From Allomyces arbusculus (Eukaryota > Blastocladiomycota > Blastocladiomycetes > Blastocladiales > Blastocladiaceae): a DNA stretch of 64,000 nt. The notes below the pieces were generated by a model. That model was not told the origin of the DNA. It saw nothing but the letters and a program-made list of their open reading frames with translations, and ran no database searches. The position numbers were made by a program, and so were the translations under genes. The stretch spans positions 62,001 through 126,000 of the forward strand of contig JADHYV010000011.1 of the NCBI GenBank assembly GCA_027604705.1. The letters are read 5' to 3'. Below, piece by piece: positions 51,593 through 62,887 of the stretch (positions are counted from its first letter, which is position 1; every line of letters starts with the position of its first letter).

Positions 51593-52630
51593 AGTGGCGG
51601 GCGGGCAGGCGCTGGGCAGGCCGCGGTGTCGTCTTTTGGCAAGCGTCGGCAAGTCGTGCGCTTGGGTTAGCTGCGGCGAGAGCGTCGTGCAGCGTCGTTG
51701 TTGACCGGCACGAGCGGCGGCAGTCTCGACGGCGAGCAGCATCGAGGTGGAAGCAAATTGTCTCGCGGCCTGTCTCGCGCCCAGCATGCAATCGCGAAAG
51801 AGCTGACATGTTCTTCCAGCTCGCTTTCAGACGCAATCCCGCCGTTCCGCGCGCTTTCTTACGTCGGCCTGTTCTGAAACAAGCACGTGGTGGCGAACGG
51901 TTTGGCAAGCTTGCAACGTTTGCGCCCTGCTTTGCGTTACGTTGCGGCGGATCAGCCGGCGTGCAAACACCCGCCGCTGCTGCCCGCGACGCGACCCACG
52001 TGCTCCCTGCAGAGTTGCCGCCGTGGCCGGCGGTGGGCGACACGCGCCCGACTCGCTCCGACGCCGCCCACGCTGGCCAATTAATCACCAATTTATTAAA
52101 CCGTGAGCACAGCACAGCAGCGCGCTTGCGGCCTTGTGGGGTGGCCCTTCTTGCAGCCCTTCTTGCAGTTGTTCCTGCCCGCGATCGTGCTGGCCGGCAG
52201 CAGCTGACCGTTTTTGCTCACACTCCTCGGCCTTTCCGCTGCCCCAATCCTCCTCCTTTTCGACCGACCGGTTTGCGCCTTGTTCTCCGAGCTCCCGCCG
52301 CTCTCGTCTCTTCTCTCGCGGCTGAGCACCCAACGTTCCTACTGGTCCCGACGAGCGGACTTGTATTTTGGTCGCCGACGCCCTCGACTCTCCCGTCACC
52401 TGTTCCTGTTCGCTCGAGGAGCGCCTGCTGCATCGATTGCTGCTGCCCACTTCCACTCGACTACGCAACGGTTCTCGATCCTGGTCGTGCCCATCGCTCC
52501 TCTCTGTCTGAACCCGTCTGTTTGTACGTCGAGGTTGGCGCTCGCGTTGTTGGTCCACGATCAGAGCGGGAGCTAACGGTCCTGCCGCACACGATCACGC
52601 AGTCAACACCCCACCGTTTCGGCCTCCACC
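51593..52630. promoter_or_regulatory. Divergent region upstream of the sirtuin and glycine decarboxylase genes
   Basis: About 1.04 kb. 51593-51787 is open in frame with the sirtuin. The rest is GC-rich leader and promoter. No independent gene supported. Confidence 0.4.
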
Positions 52631-53032
52631 ATGTTTGCGACGACCACTGCCGTCCGCCGCGCCACGGCCGCCGCCATGCGTGCCGGCATGCGTCGCGCGA
52701 CCCCTGTCCGGCACACGACCCTCCGCGCGTCGCTGGCCACGTTCCAGCCGCTCGACACGTTTGCGCGCCGCCACAACGGTCCGCGCGAATCGCAGCTCGC
52801 GGGCATGCTCGAGCAAGTCGGGTGCAAGACGCTCGACGACCTGATTGCGCGCGCCGTGCCCGCGAGTATCCGCCGCGACGCGCCGCTTGCACTCGGCGAG
52901 CCGCGTGCCGAGGCCGAGCTGCTGCGCGACCTCAAGCAGATTGCCAGCAAGAACAAGCTCATGAAGAACTACATTGGCCAAGGCTATTATGGTACCACGG
53001 TCCCGGCCGTGATCTTGCGCAACGTGCTCGAA

Positions 53033-53068
<36 letters not shown>

Positions 53069-54466
53069 CCGGAAATCTCGCAGGGTCGACTCGAGTCGCT
53101 GCTCAATTACCAGACCATGGTCACGGACTTGACGGGTTTGCCGGTCGCGAATGCGTCGTTGCTCGACGAGGGCACGGCTGCGGCCGAGGCCATGCTCATG
53201 TGCTGGTCGGCCGCGAAGCGCGCCAAGAACACGTTCTTTGTCGACGCCAATGTCTTCCCGCAGACGCTCGCGGTCCTGCAGACGCGTGCTGAAGGGTTTG
53301 GCATTAAGGTCGTTGTGGGCGACTACCAGACGTTTGACGTTGACGCGATCAAGGACGATTTGATGGGCGCGCTCGTGCAGTACCCCGCCGCCGACGGGTC
53401 GATTCACGACCTCAAGGCCTTCACGGCTAAGCTGCACGCGCACAAGGCGCAAGTCTGCTGCGCGACCGATCTGCTGGCACTGACGCTCCTGACGCCGCCC
53501 GGCGAGTGGGGTGCTGACATTGCCTTTGGCTCGGCACAGCGGTTTGGTGTCCCGCTCGGGTACGGTGGTCCGCACGCCGCGTTTTTCGCGTGCGGCGACG
53601 CGCACAAGCGCCGGATGCCCGGCCGTCTCGTCGGCGTCACGCGCGATGCGCAGGGCCGCAAGGCCTACCGTCTCGCGCTGCAGACGCGCGAGCAGCACAT
53701 TCGTCGCGAAAAGGCCACGTCCAACATTTGCACGGCGCAGGCCCTGCTCGCGAACATGGCCGCCATGTACGCCGTCTACCACGGGCCTGAGGGGCTCAAG
53801 GCGATTGCCAAGCAGGTGCATGCCATGACCGTCGCGCTCGCCCGCGCTTTGACGGCGCAGGGGCACCAGGTCGACTCGAAGCATTTCTTTGATACGATCA
53901 CGGTCACGGTTCCGTCGGGCATCAAACCGCTGGTCGCGCTCGCCGAGGAGAACGGGATCAACCTGTGCGTGCGGTCGGCGACGCAGGTGGGCGTGTCGCT
54001 CGACGAGACGACGACGCACGAGGACTTGGTCCAGTTGATTGACGTGTTTGCGCAGACCACGCCGCAGGCGCAGTACCTCGCGTCGACGACGGGCGCATCG
54101 GGCGCCGGCCGCGCCGAGCTCACGACGGCCGCTGCTGAGGCCGCGACGCTCTCGGCCCTCCCCGCTGGTCTCGTGCGCACGTCGGCGATCCTCACGCACC
54201 CGGTCTTCAACACGTACCACTCGGAGACGGAAATGCTGCGGTACATTCGCCACCTCGAGTCCAAGGACCTGTCGCTGTGCAACGCCATGATCCCGCTCGG
54301 GTCGTGCACGATGAAGCTCAATGCGACTGTCGAAATGATCCCCGTTACCTGGCCCGAGTTTGGCAACGTGCATCCTTTTGCGCCAGCGCACCAGGCGCAG
54401 GGATACGCGACGCTGATTCAGGAACTCGAGTACGCGCTCGCCGAGTGCACGGGCTTCGCGCGCGTC

Positions 54467-54501
<35 letters not shown>

Positions 54502-55657
54502 TGCGGGTCTGCGTGTGATTCGCGCGCACCATGCGGCCAACGGCGAGGCGCACCGCGACGTGTGCCTGATCCCGGTTTCCGCACACGGGACCAACCCGGC
54601 ATCGGCGGCCATGGCGGGCATGCGTGTCGTGGCCGTCGCCTGTGACGCCAAGGGCAACCTCGACCTGGCCGATCTCAAGGCCAAGGCCGAGAAGCACGCC
54701 AAGGAACTCGCCTGTATCATGGTTACGTACCCGTCGACGTTTGGTGTCTTTGAGGACGGCATCAAGCAAGTGTGCGAGATTGTGCACGCGAACGGCGGCC
54801 AGGTCTACCTCGACGGCGCCAATTTGAACGCGCAGATCGGCGTTTGCCGTCCGGGCGATTACGGTGCCGACGTGTGCCACTTGAACCTGCACAAGACGTT
54901 CTGTATCCCGCACGGCGGTGGCGGTCCTGGTGTTGGGCCGATCGGTGTCGCCGCGCACCTCGCGCCATACCTGCCCGGTCACCCGCTGCGTCCTGACATT
55001 TCGACGACGCAGGCCATGGGTCCCGTGGCCGCGGCCCCCTACGGTTCGGCCAGTATTCTGCCCATCTCGTGGGCGTACATCAAGCTGATGGGCGCTTCGG
55101 GTCTGCGCAGTGCGACGGCCATGGCGATTTTGAACGCCAACTACCTGAAGGCGCGGCTCGAGGGCGCCTACAAGGTGCTCTACGCGAACGAGGCTGGCAT
55201 GTGCGCGCACGAATTTATCGTTGACGCGCGCCCCTTCTCGGCCGTCGGGATCGAGGCCGTCGACATCGCCAAGCGCCTGCACGACTACGGGTTCCACTCG
55301 CCGACCATGTCGTGGCCCGTCGCCAACACGCTCATGATTGAGCCGACCGAGTCCGAGTCGCTGGCTGAACTCGACCGGTTCGCCGACGCGATGCTCGCGA
55401 TCCGCGAGGAGATTCGCAAGATTGAGAGTGGTGCCTGGCCCAAGGAGAACAACCCGCTTGTGAACGCACCGCACCCGGCGTCGGTCGTCCTCGCCGACAA
55501 GTGGGACCGCCCGTACACGCGGACCGAGGCGGCGTTCCCGGTTGCTGGGTTGCGCGAGCGCAAGTTCTGGCCGACGGTTGCGCGCGTCGACGACGCGTTT
55601 GGTGACAAGCATCTCGTGTGCACGTGCCCGTCGGTCGAGGAGATGGCTGAGGCATAA
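52631..55657 (+). CDS. GCV2: Glycine dehydrogenase (decarboxylating), P-protein, mitochondrial
   Basis: PLP-dependent P-protein of the mitochondrial glycine cleavage system; it decarboxylates glycine and passes the aminomethyl group to lipoylated H-protein. A single exon of 1008 residues, full family length. The first 35 residues are Arg/Ala/Thr-rich without acids ([20 protein letters not shown]), a presequence. Signatures include [65 protein letters not shown] and, in the second half, [24 protein letters not shown] and [20 protein letters not shown]. In that last motif Lys755 is the expected PLP lysine. The ATG context is CCACCATGTT. It is one of only a few intronless genes here, in line with high expression. 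Confidence 0.98.
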
Positions 55658-56040
55658 GTTGGTGTCATAGGACGAGAGAAAATGGGGCCCGTAGAGGGAC
55701 CAGACGGGATGGATTTGAGTTGGGTTTGTGCTTTTGTTGTCCTTGGTTTGCTGTGTTGCGCGCCGGTTGAGCGCCTTTGCGTTGGTTTATACGTACCTCT
55801 ATACATTACACTAGTGTCTGCTCCGATGGTGATCCGTTCGTTTGCCTGAGGGCGAAGCGAGTGGGGAGAGATTTGTGTCGGACCGGCACTTGGTCGCAAA
55901 CCGACACGATTCAGACTTGCGATCGCTGGATCCTCCTACAACCAAAAGCCAACATACAAAAAACGTTTGAACATTCCATCCAAATCCAAAACGATATGTA
56001 CATAATGATCTCGCAGCACACAACGTCCGATGAGGACTAC
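55658..56040. other. Convergent intergenic region
   Basis: 383 bp between glycine decarboxylase and the epimerase fusion 3' ends. AT-rich patches near 55785-55815 and 55940-56010 fit polyadenylation regions. Confidence 0.45.
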
Positions 56041-59000
56041 CTACTCTGCTGTAAACTGGCCAACCGTCCCCAAGCACTCACGGTCTTCGACAGGGTACGC
56101 GGGCTCGGCCAAGACGCTGTGCCCACTGATCAAGCTCGCCGGCACCCCCATACACTTACTCTCGCGCATCTGCAGGTCATCCTCCTCGCCAGCGCTCGCA
56201 GGACACACTTCACGCATGAACCAAACCTTGAGCCCAATCATGGTTCGCTTTTTGATCTCCTGCCCGGCCATGCAGATCGGATGCAGGAAGAGCACATTCG
56301 GTGCGCACATGTCAACCGAGTCGCGCGGGCAGAAATCCTGCCGCCCGAAAATTGACGAGTAGTCGCGCACTGCCAATTTCCCTTGCTGCTGCAGATCCGC
56401 ACACGCCTCGCGCGACTGGCAAAGCCCGCCGTGCGCGGCAAGCGCCGTCCCAAACGCGCTCTGGTCCGGGATCGTCGGGTCCCGGTCGCCAATTGCCAAG
56501 TACTCGCGGAAAAAGTCGAACGTCGTGCGTGTTGGCCGCGCCACAAAATTGCCCGTGTTCACGGGCCACGGCGGCTCATACTTGATGGCGAGATCGGCAC
56601 CGACCGCGTCAAGCCACGGCAGGTAGGTCGCCCAGACGTTGCGTACGTAGGCGACGTCCGTATCCGAAAAGTGCACCGTGTACCCGAGCTTCAGGAGCGC
56701 GTGGACGACGCGCGGCTTGACCCAGGAAATGAGCGCCCACCCGTCGCCTTCTCCGGCATGCACTTCGACATTGGTGAACGACGACGGCGAGTAGGCGGTC
56801 GCGTTGAAGCACGGCAAATTCTTGGCGAGACAGCTGTTGAGCGACACGTCGTTGATGGCCGCGACAATGAAGTTCCGCGATTGTCCAAACTTGACGAGCG
56901 AGTAGATCAAGTTCTCGAGCAGCGGGCGGTATGCGATATGGTACGGGATGACCGTGATCTGCTTGTCGCGCGCCTGCATCTCGGCGAGCACCGCGAGATC
57001 GTTGACGAGTGGCGCGTACTTGGGCCGCAGCAGACCCGGCGGGAGCAGCCACGGATGTGCCGCGTGCGCCTCGATCAAGCGCTGCACGTCCGGCCGGGCG
57101 AGATGCGCGGCCGGATCGGCCGCGTCTTCGATCAGCGCCGTCATTTCGCGCGTAAATTCGTAGTCGGCGTGAAATCCAAGCGTTTTCTTAGCCTTGCACG
57201 TATCGGCGAGTGTGCCGACCAGATCGTTATTGCGCTCAGCGACGTGCACCTGGTCGAGCGAGACCAAGTCGGCCACTTCCTTCACCGAATGCCCGACCCC
57301 GGTCCCGGCATTCACGACCATGCCGTGGTGCGGCGACTGTTGCGCGAGAATCAGCGCCTTGGCAATATCGCGCGCGTGAATGAAGTCGCGGAAGTGCGAC
57401 CCGTCGCCCTCGATCGGCAGCGGCTCGTTGTCGATCCACTTCTTGAGAAATACACCCGTGACAATTGCGTAGGCGCCCGTCGTGGGCTGCCGCGGGCCAT
57501 AGACCATAAAGAACCGCACGGAAATGGTCGGCAGGTTGAAAATGCGGTCGTAGAGATCCATTTGAATCTCACCCTCGTATTTCGTCGCCGCGTACGGCGT
57601 CAGCAAGTTGGGCGCGTCAGCTTCATTCATGGGCACTTTGCCGTTGCCGTAGTAGGTAGACGACGCGGCGTAGACCACCTTCTTGACGCCGGCGATGCGC
57701 GACGCGTTAAGCACGTGCACGGTCCCGTCGACATTTGTGTCGAGGCAAAACTTGGCCATGGCCGGATCCTTCATGCTCGGCGCGACCTTGGACATGGCGG
57801 CCAGATGGTAGACGTAGTCGACACCCTTGACTGCGGTCAACACCGTCTCCTGGTCCATGATGTCGCCGTAGATGAACTCGACGGCCGGGTGCGTGATCAG
57901 GTGCGCAATATTGTGCACAAAACCCGTGGCCAAGTTGTCGAGAATGCGCACACGGTACCCGAGCGAGAGGAGCCGCTCAACGAGGTGCGACCCGATGAAC
58001 CCTGCCCCGCCCGTGACGAGCGCCGTCGTGTTGGCGCTTGGCTGCGGGTCCTTGCGGGTGAACGGTGTGTCGGCGCACGGGTCCAGCCCACGAACTCCGT
58101 GAAACAGCGGGCCAGAGACCTGGTGCTGCCGCGCGTCGGTAATGGCGTACGTGAAATGATCAGCGCGCAACCCGTCGTGCCGCGTGAGCGCTGAAACCGT
58201 GACGAGGACCAGACCGGCAAAGAAGAAGACAAGTGACGCGATCATGATGCCCGGTGCACGCGCGGTCTCCTTCTTGGGCTCCTTGGTTGCAACAAGCACG
58301 TCGCCCACGCCGACTGGTGGCACCGCGTGGTACTCGGCCGCGACGGCAGCAGCGCGCGCCGACCGAATCGCCGCGGTTATGGCCGCGGCCAGGACGAGCA
58401 CCGAGCCGGCAAGGAGACCAATCAGTGCCTCATTTGGCCATTCGCCAGCGCTTGCTGTTGCTGCCGTAACGGAAACATTAGCAATGCCGAGCGCCAGAAT
58501 GACGGCGCCGCGGACGGTCCCGCCCGTCGCATAGAGTGTTCCGGTGGAGAGCGTAGCAAAAAAGGCAGCGCATACGAGTAGAAGCAAATGGGCGCCGTCA
58601 GGCACGTGCGTCGGAAGACCAACGACCAGAGCCACGAAGAACGTCGGGACGACCGAGAACACGACCGGGTGCTGGATGGTCGCCGCGCGGGGCGAGACTG
58701 AGTCGAAGTGCAGGTCGGACAGGTCACGGCCGTGCACGATCGTGGAGGCCTTGGTGCTGATCCAGAGCCCCGCGACACTGATGACGATAAGGACCGTTGT
58801 CGCGAGAACCGGATTGGTGATGGGCCACGCAACGGCTAGAAAGCTGCGGGATCCAGGGAAACGTGGTGTCAGCGGAAGTTGATCGCGTGGGAGTGGTGCT
58901 GGGTCCAAATGGTACGCACACGATCACAGCCAAAAACAGAGCCACTCGAGTCCACCAACGAAACCACATCGTGCTGTGAGCAGTGGAAACGTGCCGTGCT

Positions 59001-59613
59001 GCATCCGAGTCACCGTCTCGGAAATGCGCGATGAACAACTGGACGCCGCCATGTCAGCACAGGATGCAACCACCGCATCCAAAAGAGCAATGTACGTACC
59101 AGCAGTGTGAGGACAATGTTTTGCGGAACAACTGCCGTGGCGACCACACACGCGACCGCGAAAACGGTCATACCCACGCCGAGTCCGAGAACCTGCGTCC
59201 AAGGCATCCATGAGCGTCGCCATGCCGGCGTCGCGGCACGGCAGATGGCCATGACGCTAGCTGGGACTGCGACATCGATGAGCGCAATCAGGGCCGCTGC
59301 GCGCGCCCAATCTGGTGGAGAATGATCTCCTTGCACGGTTGCGCCCGAAATAACCGAAGAAGCCAAGCTAGTATGGGCATAGGGAAGAAGCGTGAGGAGA
59401 GGCGCGCATCATTACCGTGCTCGTTGTCAAGAGAGTCGCCACGAACAATATGTGGGCAAACGTGGCCAAGACCAGCGCCGAAGCCGATAGACCGGCGGCC
59501 ACGCGTGCCGCTCGTATCGGTGGTTGCCGCGCCGGAGATGAGGGTGGGGAGGCCAAATCGGCACGGGTGCTAGGGCCGTCAAGTGTAATTGCGGTATCGT
59601 CGGCGTCATGCAT
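56041..59613 (-). CDS. Multi-pass membrane protein fused to sugar-nucleotide epimerase and glycosyltransferase
   Basis: Exons 59613-59462, 59367-59100, 59038-58920 and 58843-56041 give about 1113 residues. The N-terminal 400 residues hold about eight hydrophobic helices (for example AAALIALIDVAVPASVMAIC, VVPQNIVLTLL, ALFLAVIVFLAVAW). Next is an NAD-dependent epimerase/dehydratase domain: VTGGAGFIGSHL near nt 58010, DYVYHLAAMSKV, YxxxK in PYAATKYEGE near nt 57594, and RDFIHARDIAKALILA. A linker leads to a glycosyltransferase of the Nucleotid_trans (GT77-like) type, with ISWVKPRVVHALLKLGYTV and the DxD motif HFSDTDVAYVRN near nt 56664. I infer a Golgi or plasma-membrane enzyme that makes a UDP-sugar epimer and transfers it. 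The exon 1-2 junction is the weakest (donor GTTTGC; GTAATG would break frame). I see no break in the long final exon. Confidence 0.8.
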
Positions 59614-60917: not shown

Positions 60918-62887
60918 ATGGGCGGCGTGTGCTGCAAGGAGGAGGAGATTGATTTTGACGGCGAAGGTATTGGCGACCCCGTCGCCTGGCGACGTGTTTC
61001 TTGAACGAGCTAAGACTCACGCAGTCGCTGTGCTCGCTAGTCGATTTGAATCACTTTGAGCTGCTTCGATCGGTCGGTAAGGGCGCGTTTGGCAAAGTAC
61101 GTTCAACCTCTCCCTCTCGCGCGCGACTCACCCCACCCATCTCTCACCCGCCCGCTCACCTTTATCTCCCCGCTAGGTGCGCGTCGTGCAGCACAAAAAG
61201 GACCAGAAAATATACGCGCTCAAGTACATCAACAAGGAAAAATGCATCAAGATGCGCGCTGTCGAGAACATCATCCAGGAGCGGCGGTTGCTCGAGGAAA
61301 TCGACTTCCCGCTCGTCTGCAACTTGCGGTTCGCGTTCCAGGACGACGAAAATATGTTTATGATTATCGACTTGATGCTCGGCGGCGACTTGCGGTTCCA
61401 CCTCGACCGGCAAGGGTGTCTCAAGGAGGACATGGTCCAGTTTTACGTGGCCGAGGTCGCGCTCGGACTGCATTACTTGCACTCGCGCAAGATTGTGCAT
61501 CGGTACGTGGGGATCAGCCACGCGCGAGAGTTCGGTGCCGGTCTGCGGGAACTGATACGTTCGTGGACGCGGATGTAGGGACCTGAAACCCGACAACGTG
61601 CTGTTGTGTGAGAGTATGCTTCCCCTCGTGTTTGTCGCGTTCCGTGTCGACGCCGGTCCTGACATGTCGTTCCGCGCTAACTGTAGAGGGCCACGCACAC
61701 TTGACCGACTTCAACATTGCCGTGCACTACAACGAGAAGAAGCCGCTGACGGCCGTGGCCGGGTCCATGGCGTATATGGGTACGCGTCGAGCGAGCTCGA
61801 TCATCCCACACGCGTGCACATCGCTCACGATCCCTCTCCCCCACCCCCACCCCCCAATAGCCCCAGAGGTCCTTAGCAAGAAGGGCTACTTTGAGTCGGT
61901 CGACTGGTGGAGTCTCGGCGTCATGGCCTTTGAGCTCTTGTTTGGCAAGGTACCAAACGCCTCCTCCTCCCTACGACTCACGCGGGCATTGCTAACAGCG
62001 ATAGTGCCTCTCCATCACTAGCGCCCGTACCGCGGCAAGACCAACGAGGCGTTGACACAAGCCATCTTGTACGACGACTTGGTGTTCCCGGAGAACGCGT
62101 CGAGCCACGTGTCGAAGGCGTGCATGGAGTGCCTGCGTGGGGTACGCGTGTTTGATTTCTTGGTTGGGACTGCCCTCCCCCACCGTTGCCTGATGCCGTG
62201 CGTCTTTGGGGGTTTAGTTCTTGACGCGCGACGTGACCAAGCGACTCGGGTGCGGGCCGACGGGCCTGCAGGACCTTAAGGACCACGCGTGGCTCAAGCA
62301 CCTCGACTGGGACCACATGGAGACCAAGGAGGCGATTGCGCCGTTCATTCCCGACGTACGCGACACCCACCGCTCACTCATCACCACCGCACTTACGCGA
62401 CACCCACCGCTCACTCACCACCCCCGCACTCACGCTGACCCCACCTCCCACCCAACAGAGCAAGCGCCCCAACTTTGACGCGACGCACGAGCTCGAGGAA
62501 CTCCTTCTCGAAGAGAACCCGCTCAAGCACAAGAAGCGCGCGGCGCCGAAACCGGGCGCGCCACCGCAATCCAAGGAAGAGCGGCTGATGGACGAAAAGT
62601 TCCTCGTCTACGACTACTCGAAACCCAAGCCCAACAAGCGGAGTCTCGGCGAACACTCATTTATTGACTTGCAGGCAATTGTGCGCGACGACGGGTCGGG
62701 CATGCCGGGCGCGTCGTCTACCTGCTCAGACTCGACGGCGCCGGGACATGGCGTGCCGCGTGGATCGGTCTCGGCCACGGGCGTGATCCCACCGCCGCCG
62801 CCGCCGATTGCGGAAGAGGCGATGGGTGGGATGGCCGGGTTGGCCGCGAACGTTGCGCTGCCGGCGTCGCGTGGCGCGACGGATTAA
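60918..62887 (+). CDS. YANK/STK32-type serine/threonine kinase, probably myristoylated
   Basis: Nine exons: 60918-60966, 61041-61096, 61177-61502, 61579-61613, 61687-61779, 61861-61949, 62022-62141, 62218-62355 and 62459-62887. They give 444 residues. MGGVCC at the N-terminus is an N-myristoylation plus palmitoylation signal, predicting membrane anchoring. Kinase motifs: LLRSVGKGAFGKVRVVQ, YALKYINKEKC with the ATP-binding Lys, a C-helix Glu in IIQERRLLEEI, HRDLKPDNVLLCEKGH, DFN in place of DFG (HLTDFNIAVH), SMAYMAPEVL and SVDWWSLGVMAFELLFG. DFN and the GEVDLNHFELL lead-in match the YANK/STK32 branch of AGC kinases. The tail has a hydrophobic-motif-like LVYDYSKP, then disorder. The exon 4 end was fixed by a GTATGC donor, because the nearer GTGAGA would create a stop. 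Exon 4 is 35 nt. Confidence 0.93.

Follow-up and report, generated by a model that had tools for sequence, protein, structure and literature searches.

A polytopic membrane protein of Allomyces arbusculus joins a sugar-nucleotide epimerase to a GT77-type glycosyltransferase and recurs in its genome

Examining a 64,000-nucleotide stretch of the Allomyces arbusculus genome (assembly GCA_027604705.1, contig JADHYV010000011.1, positions 62,001 to 126,000; hereafter the window), we identified a real, repeated and membrane-bound fusion of a sugar-nucleotide epimerase with a glycosyltransferase, which is partly in print as a list of domains. Its membrane part, its four-copy family, the conversion pattern within this family and the decay of the transferase look new, and were not met in the literature searched.

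Results

Gene model and paralog family

The fusion gene lies on the minus strand (59613..56041) and comprises 4 exons encoding 1118 aa, with splice sites placed by comparison with its paralogs:

59447..59613, minus strand: exon 1, N-terminal tail and span 1, from the ATG at 59613 to a phase 2 end with donor GTTCGT at 59446 (frame and splice sites)
59100..59367, minus strand: exon 2, spans 2-3 and beginning of span 4 (frame), followed by a phase-0 intron with donor GTACGT at 59099
58920..59038, minus strand: exon 3, rest of span 4, a loop and the beginning of span 5, with donor GTGCGT at 58919 and acceptor CAG ending at 58844
56041..58843, minus strand: exon 4, 2803 bp in a single open frame, with spans 5-11, epimerase, linker, glycosyltransferase and stop

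A single stop-free frame of 960 aa (58923..56041, minus strand) contains both enzyme domains; 500 randomised versions of the stretch, drawn from a first-order Markov model, had no stop-free run above 472 codons. All residue numbers given below for motifs and domains follow this ORF, not the 1118-aa protein.

Searching the window's own genome (25.9 Mb, 197 contigs) with the 960-residue protein revealed, besides the window gene (contig C11), six half-genes, each at most 5 bases from a contig end:

C112 start, C148 start and C148 end: N-terminal halves, breaking off at residues 340-389 (genome search)
C105 start, C78 start and C112 end: C-terminal halves, beginning at residues 568-582 (genome search)

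The orientations of these half-genes all fit three further whole genes, and they are best read as three more copies of the fusion architecture, which would bring the family to about four paralogs. No sequence for the epimerase middle of the split copies (about residues 390-567) turned up in the assembly.

A 2-0-2 pattern of intron phases suits each of the four N-terminal halves. The phase-2 intron at the end of exon 1 can be placed at an equivalent point in each of the three other N-terminal halves, with GC instead of GT at one donor, in the copy at the end of C148; the phase-0 intron after exon 2 and the phase-2 intron after exon 3 have equivalent positions in 4/4. As splice sites were chosen partly for this phase agreement, the result is a consistent model and not an independent proof. 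A phase-0 donor, GTAATG at 59415, was rejected, being out of frame with the acceptor at 59368; the paralogs permit a phase-2 site there. An earlier note, made from the sequence by eye, had set one limit of its interval at 59613, exactly the position of the ATG, and proposed a 2.8-kb final exon, which corresponds to the 2803 bp found here. The domain order that it described, in a single chain and a single last exon, is borne out, with corresponding halves recurring in the paralogs.

Several other long frames surround the gene. Two antisense open frames, one of 612 aa opposite the fusion gene (56356-58194, plus strand) and one of 1063 aa opposite a likely real gene (52595-55786, minus strand), are such as high G+C codon use would give. 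Read by eye, a neighbouring long frame (52577-55657, plus strand) resembles a glycine decarboxylase P-protein, and positions 61177-61578 (plus strand) the start of an AGC-type protein kinase. Elsewhere in the genome, C112:38239-40479 and C148:3398-5939 each contain two DUF707 (PF05212) matches in an alike minus/plus arrangement, about 1.6-7 kb from a half-gene, the plus-strand members being 69% alike in DNA. On C112 the pair is downstream of its half-gene, on C148 upstream, and the arrangement therefore does not demonstrate a simple block duplication. The DUF707 family is expanded in this genome, with 15 rows of matches, part of which are fragments of a single gene.

Membrane part and topology

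58033..58843, minus strand: exon-4 share of the membrane part, without Pfam family (hydropathy, loop charges)

The first 294 ORF residues matched no Pfam family, their sole hit (E 0.078) falling far under its cut-off, and the four N-terminal parts searched against Pfam gave a best E-value of 0.011 and likewise no family match. The polytopic N-terminus announced by the earlier note is apparent, as about 11 hydrophobic spans by hand reading and 10 by plain hydropathy count in the window copy (10, 11, 10 and 13 segments across the family of four, window copy included). Under the 11-span assignment, with hand-set boundaries and short outside loops, Lys and Arg are distributed between inside and outside loops as 20/4, 17/5, 10/4 and 23/5 in the four copies. 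This balance is moderate evidence for a lumenal C-terminus, one span more or less being enough to flip the side. The conserved cysteines of the transferase domain and its sequon NAT, kept in 3/4 copies, agree with the lumenal side.

A membrane-profile search of the PDB returned only a SecE chain (E 0.11). None of the four N-terminal parts matched a Pfam DMT family at an E-value of 10 or below, in searches where HMMER filters drop most hits above 0.1, and hhalign of the membrane part against two TPT-type proteins of the same genome, from alignments of only 4 and 2 sequences, gave 0.2%. It is a speculative and quite improbable reading that the first ten spans form an undescribed, DMT-sized UDP-sugar transporter, in which case one polypeptide would import, epimerise and transfer the sugar in the lumen, the central module being held uniform by gene conversion as the outer modules specialise.

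Epimerase domain

57136..58032, minus strand: extended-SDR sugar-nucleotide epimerase domain, ORF residues 298-596 (PF01370, PDB match, AF2/Foldseek)
57991..58011, minus strand: NAD-binding motif GGAGFIG, residues 305-311
57505..57507, minus strand: Met473, where aligned relatives have Asn

PF01370 (Epimerase) matches residues 301-540 over model positions 1-240 of 240 (E 1.2e-50), above its curated Pfam cut-off, and PF16363 (GDP_Man_Dehyd) matches the domain as well (E 1.1e-48). Two of the motifs read by eye in the earlier note are located here, GGAGFIG and the catalytic YxxxK, the latter as Y444-A-A-T-K448. By its NAD motif, YxxxK, full-length profile and predicted fold, the domain belongs to the extended SDR / NAD-dependent epimerases. 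The AF2 model reached a pLDDT mostly above 90 in the epimerase (273 residues at or above 90 in the 666-residue fused model), and Foldseek ranked WbpP (1sb8) best, together with the M. ruminantium UDP-GlcNAc 4-epimerase and PelX at the top. The closest solved relative by sequence is PelX (6wjb, E 3.1e-47), followed by other UDP-GlcNAc 4-epimerases. S421 and Y444 align with Ser121 and Tyr146 of PelX, the residues changed in entry 6wj9, and K448 aligns with its Lys. From this Ser/Tyr/Lys set and its closest relatives, the domain is predicted to be of the UDP-hexose(NAc) 4-epimerase type. UDP-glucose 4-epimerases score nearly as high as UDP-GlcNAc 4-epimerases, both by sequence and in Foldseek, which leaves the substrate unsettled between the two types. 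The best 25 of 52 NCBIfam families all scored below their cut-offs (TviC 146 of 760 bits, GalE 140.5 of 262.3).

Comparison was extended to 160 kept relatives (80 of at least 580 confirmed prokaryotic and 80 of at least 576 confirmed viral-contig stretches), whose epimerases are 32-44% identical to that of the window. The conserved Asn of the R-F/Y-F-N (RFFN) motif, present at the aligned position in 160/160 of them, is replaced by Met473 in the window protein, and H510 and N566 are likewise off the consensus of these relatives; such departures suggest that the activity or the substrate of the epimerase may be altered. The stop-to-stop epimerase frame of 159/160 relatives does not exceed 420 aa and could not accommodate an epimerase plus a glycosyltransferase; the one longer frame, 535 aa in L038, extends by eye into its upstream neighbour. 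This check considered the epimerase frame alone, at loci some of which are incomplete, and a fusion elsewhere is possible.

The same genome contains a separate GalE-like gene (L003, by-eye reading), a frame resembling GDP-mannose 4,6-dehydratase (L001, PF16363 451.5 bits), and two others that by eye resemble an RmlB-like dehydratase and a GDP-fucose synthase (L006, L008). From frames of the L001, L006 and L008 types, the organism probably makes GDP-fucose.

Glycosyltransferase domain

56044..56958, minus strand: GT77-type glycosyltransferase domain with 10 Cys, PF03407 matching ORF residues 683-893
56656..56664, minus strand: DxD motif DTD, residues 754-756

The PF03407 (Nucleotid_trans) match over residues 683-893 (E 2e-18) lies above the curated Pfam cut-off, as does that of the epimerase, so that the epimerase and transferase placed in one frame by the earlier note both pass; its DxD is the DTD of residues 754-756. 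Scores reach 67.6-71.4 bits in the window copy and 77.8-79.5 bits in C105 (cut-off 22), with DTD in both, and the GT77-type assignment of these two copies is a solid prediction. Nine of the 10 Cys of the window domain are invariant in the four copies, the tenth being present in 3/4. AF2 gave the GT part a pLDDT of 35 from a single sequence, and its blocks in the fused model 23-57; the predicted GT fold rests on the Pfam match. The GT domains of the window copy and C105 are 67% identical, with dN 0.20 and dS 0.84, and look to be under purifying selection.

The transferase of C78 scores 15 bits and has lost the DxD, and that at the end of C112 scores 13.6 bits despite a DAD, both below the cut-off of 22. 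These two of the four copies have probably lost transferase activity, and the enzyme pairing thus does not extend to the whole family. Within the genome, PF03407 hits were limited to the window copy and C105, a lower bound in that the best candidates were scored frame by frame. A weak GT-like stretch with an internal stop occurs on C4 of the same genome (E 0.01). A search with a few peptide patterns found no viral relatives, either for the complete ORF or for its GT part.

Patchwork divergence within the gene

Divergence among the copies differs strongly along the gene. Pairs of the three split copies, compared over the first 40 codons of the epimerase (89 codons in one case), share 95-100% protein identity with dS 0.06-0.27; differing four-fold sites number 1/24, 4/21 and 3/21, from small totals. 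Over the alignable codons of the membrane part, identity in these pairs falls to 29-42%, dS is about 1.1-1.2 and four-fold differences amount to 72/113, 75/133 and 49/79. The C-terminal halves show a weaker contrast in the same direction, pairs with dS 0.39-0.49 across the C-terminal end of the epimerase plus linker reaching 0.90-1.12 over the GT domain. The copy in the window stands further apart, with dS 0.56-1.0 over the first epimerase stretch. Such a synonymous contrast inside one gene points to gene conversion homogenising the epimerase module, which would also explain the assembly breaks there. The epimerase module would thereby be kept alike while the membrane and transferase modules diverge.

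Discussion

Proposed mechanism and alternatives

Taken as a whole, we consider it somewhat probable that the gene encodes a secretory-pathway membrane enzyme with lumenal epimerase and GT77 domains, one of about four paralogs whose epimerase is homogenised by conversion. The product would be a polytopic protein of the Golgi type, anchored by about eleven spans with a cytosolic N-terminus and a lumenal C-terminus. A tightly NAD-bound lumenal 4-epimerase, of the UDP-GlcNAc/UDP-Glc 4-epimerase type, would convert a UDP-sugar imported into the lumen, and its GT77 neighbour would pass the product to a glycoprotein or wall glycan, two of the paralogs probably being devoid of transferase activity. 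The lumenal side, the substrate and the coupling of the two steps are predictions; coupling would be the natural reading, and the substrate channelling proposed in the earlier note is a reasonable, though putative, form of it.

The same fusion could instead expose both catalytic domains to the cytosol, the epimerase drawing on the cytosolic UDP-sugar pool and the transferase modifying an acceptor in the cytosol or the membrane. As a rule, sugar-nucleotide epimerases reside in the cytosol, the Skp1 galactosyltransferase of Dictyostelium, a member of the transferase's family, provides a precedent for cytosolic action, only 2 Cys occur in the 357 residues of epimerase and linker, and the span count is uncertain by one. 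Set against the conserved Cys set and sequon of the GT domain and the loop charge balance of all four copies, this arrangement appears unlikely, while deserving appreciable weight. We regard as less likely still a non-catalytic epimerase domain, serving the transferase as a scaffold or sugar-nucleotide sensor and kept uniform for structural reasons. The departures at Met473, H510 and N566 would suit such a role, as would the decoupling of modules seen in the two paralogs whose GT degenerated and whose epimerase parts are conserved; the NAD motif is intact in the window copy, however, as are the Ser, Tyr and Lys that align with catalytic residues, and dN is low in the epimerase part. That the fusion is an artefact of assembly or gene prediction, uniting two adjacent genes or a chimeric join, is extremely improbable. 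The epimerase is indeed a repeated sequence and the site of assembly breaks in the other copies, but the window copy runs unbroken in one frame inside a 516-kb contig, has no stop codon between the epimerase and transferase domains, and possesses a linker that aligns with all three C-terminal halves, each of which also passes from the epimerase end into the GT.

Comparison with known systems

RGXT2 of plants is a GT77, PF03407-type transferase. To our knowledge, GT77 enzymes such as RGXT2 have neither an epimerase nor a polytopic membrane part, and the plant sugar-nucleotide enzymes MUR4 and UXS2 are not fused to a transferase. WbpP (1sb8), PelX (6wjb) and the M. ruminantium epimerase (6dnt) share the fold of the window epimerase (TMt 0.83-0.92) at 31-34% identity and are, unlike the window fusion, prokaryotic and single-domain by length; PelX and 6dnt carry Asn or an Asn-aligned residue at the position of Met473. 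In the retrieved text of PMC3283625, the catalytic C-termini of RGXT2, UXS2 and MUR4 are shown in the Golgi lumen, as proposed here for the window GT and epimerase, and the number of spans of MUR4 and UXS2 is variably predicted. A lumenal epimerase would therefore not be unprecedented.

GT77 proteins of early-diverging fungi are given three architectures in the retrieved text of PMC8778642 (PF03407 by itself, joined to PF16363, or joined to PF02485) and are described as probably associated with protein modification. The proteins combining PF16363 and PF03407 resemble that of the window, in which both families score above cut-off in one chain; the likeness is one of domain content alone, as that text, unlike the window gene, comes without stated domain order, taxon, membrane part or paralogy. 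This list pre-empts a bare claim of a new fusion. The earlier note knew of no described enzyme with this order; the combination of PF03407 and PF16363 had already been listed, whereas the order and the membrane part are not given in the retrieved text. Within open-licence PMC, no other paper than PMC8778642 was found to pair PF03407 with these epimerase models. The retrieved main text of a survey of sugar-nucleotide enzymes in 491 fungi (PMC8092308) does not contain the words fusion, fused or bifunctional.

Two microbial-rhodopsin matches also occur in this genome (L026 on C7, L027 on C15), and in L026 one ORF runs from the rhodopsin into a guanylyl-cyclase domain, whose closest entries are 6sir and 6ao9; 6ao9 bears the name of a rhodopsin/guanylyl cyclase fusion. 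A fusion of rhodopsin and guanylyl cyclase is reported in Blastocladiomycota, Chytridiomycota and Sanchytriomycota in the retrieved text of PMC9616733. The L026 ORF thus most likely marks the genome as that of a zoosporic fungus, and its G+C content, with the source organisms of 6sir and 6ao9, tentatively suggests Blastocladiomycota; a 5.8S rRNA search yielded no match.

Implications

The coupling of sugar-nucleotide synthesis and transfer is a question raised in plants, as the retrieved text of PMC6019018 indicates, and is hard to test with separate proteins. If both enzymes are lumenal on one chain, the Allomyces fusion would offer a ready-made test of such coupling in the secretory pathway. 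A UDP-GlcNAc-type epimerase would moreover bear on the statement, in the retrieved text of PMC8092308, that UDP-GalNAc is predicted to be lacking in Blastocladiomycota and Chytridiomycota. Finally, with a near-identical epimerase start and transferases that are either intact or broken, the paralogs constitute a natural experiment.
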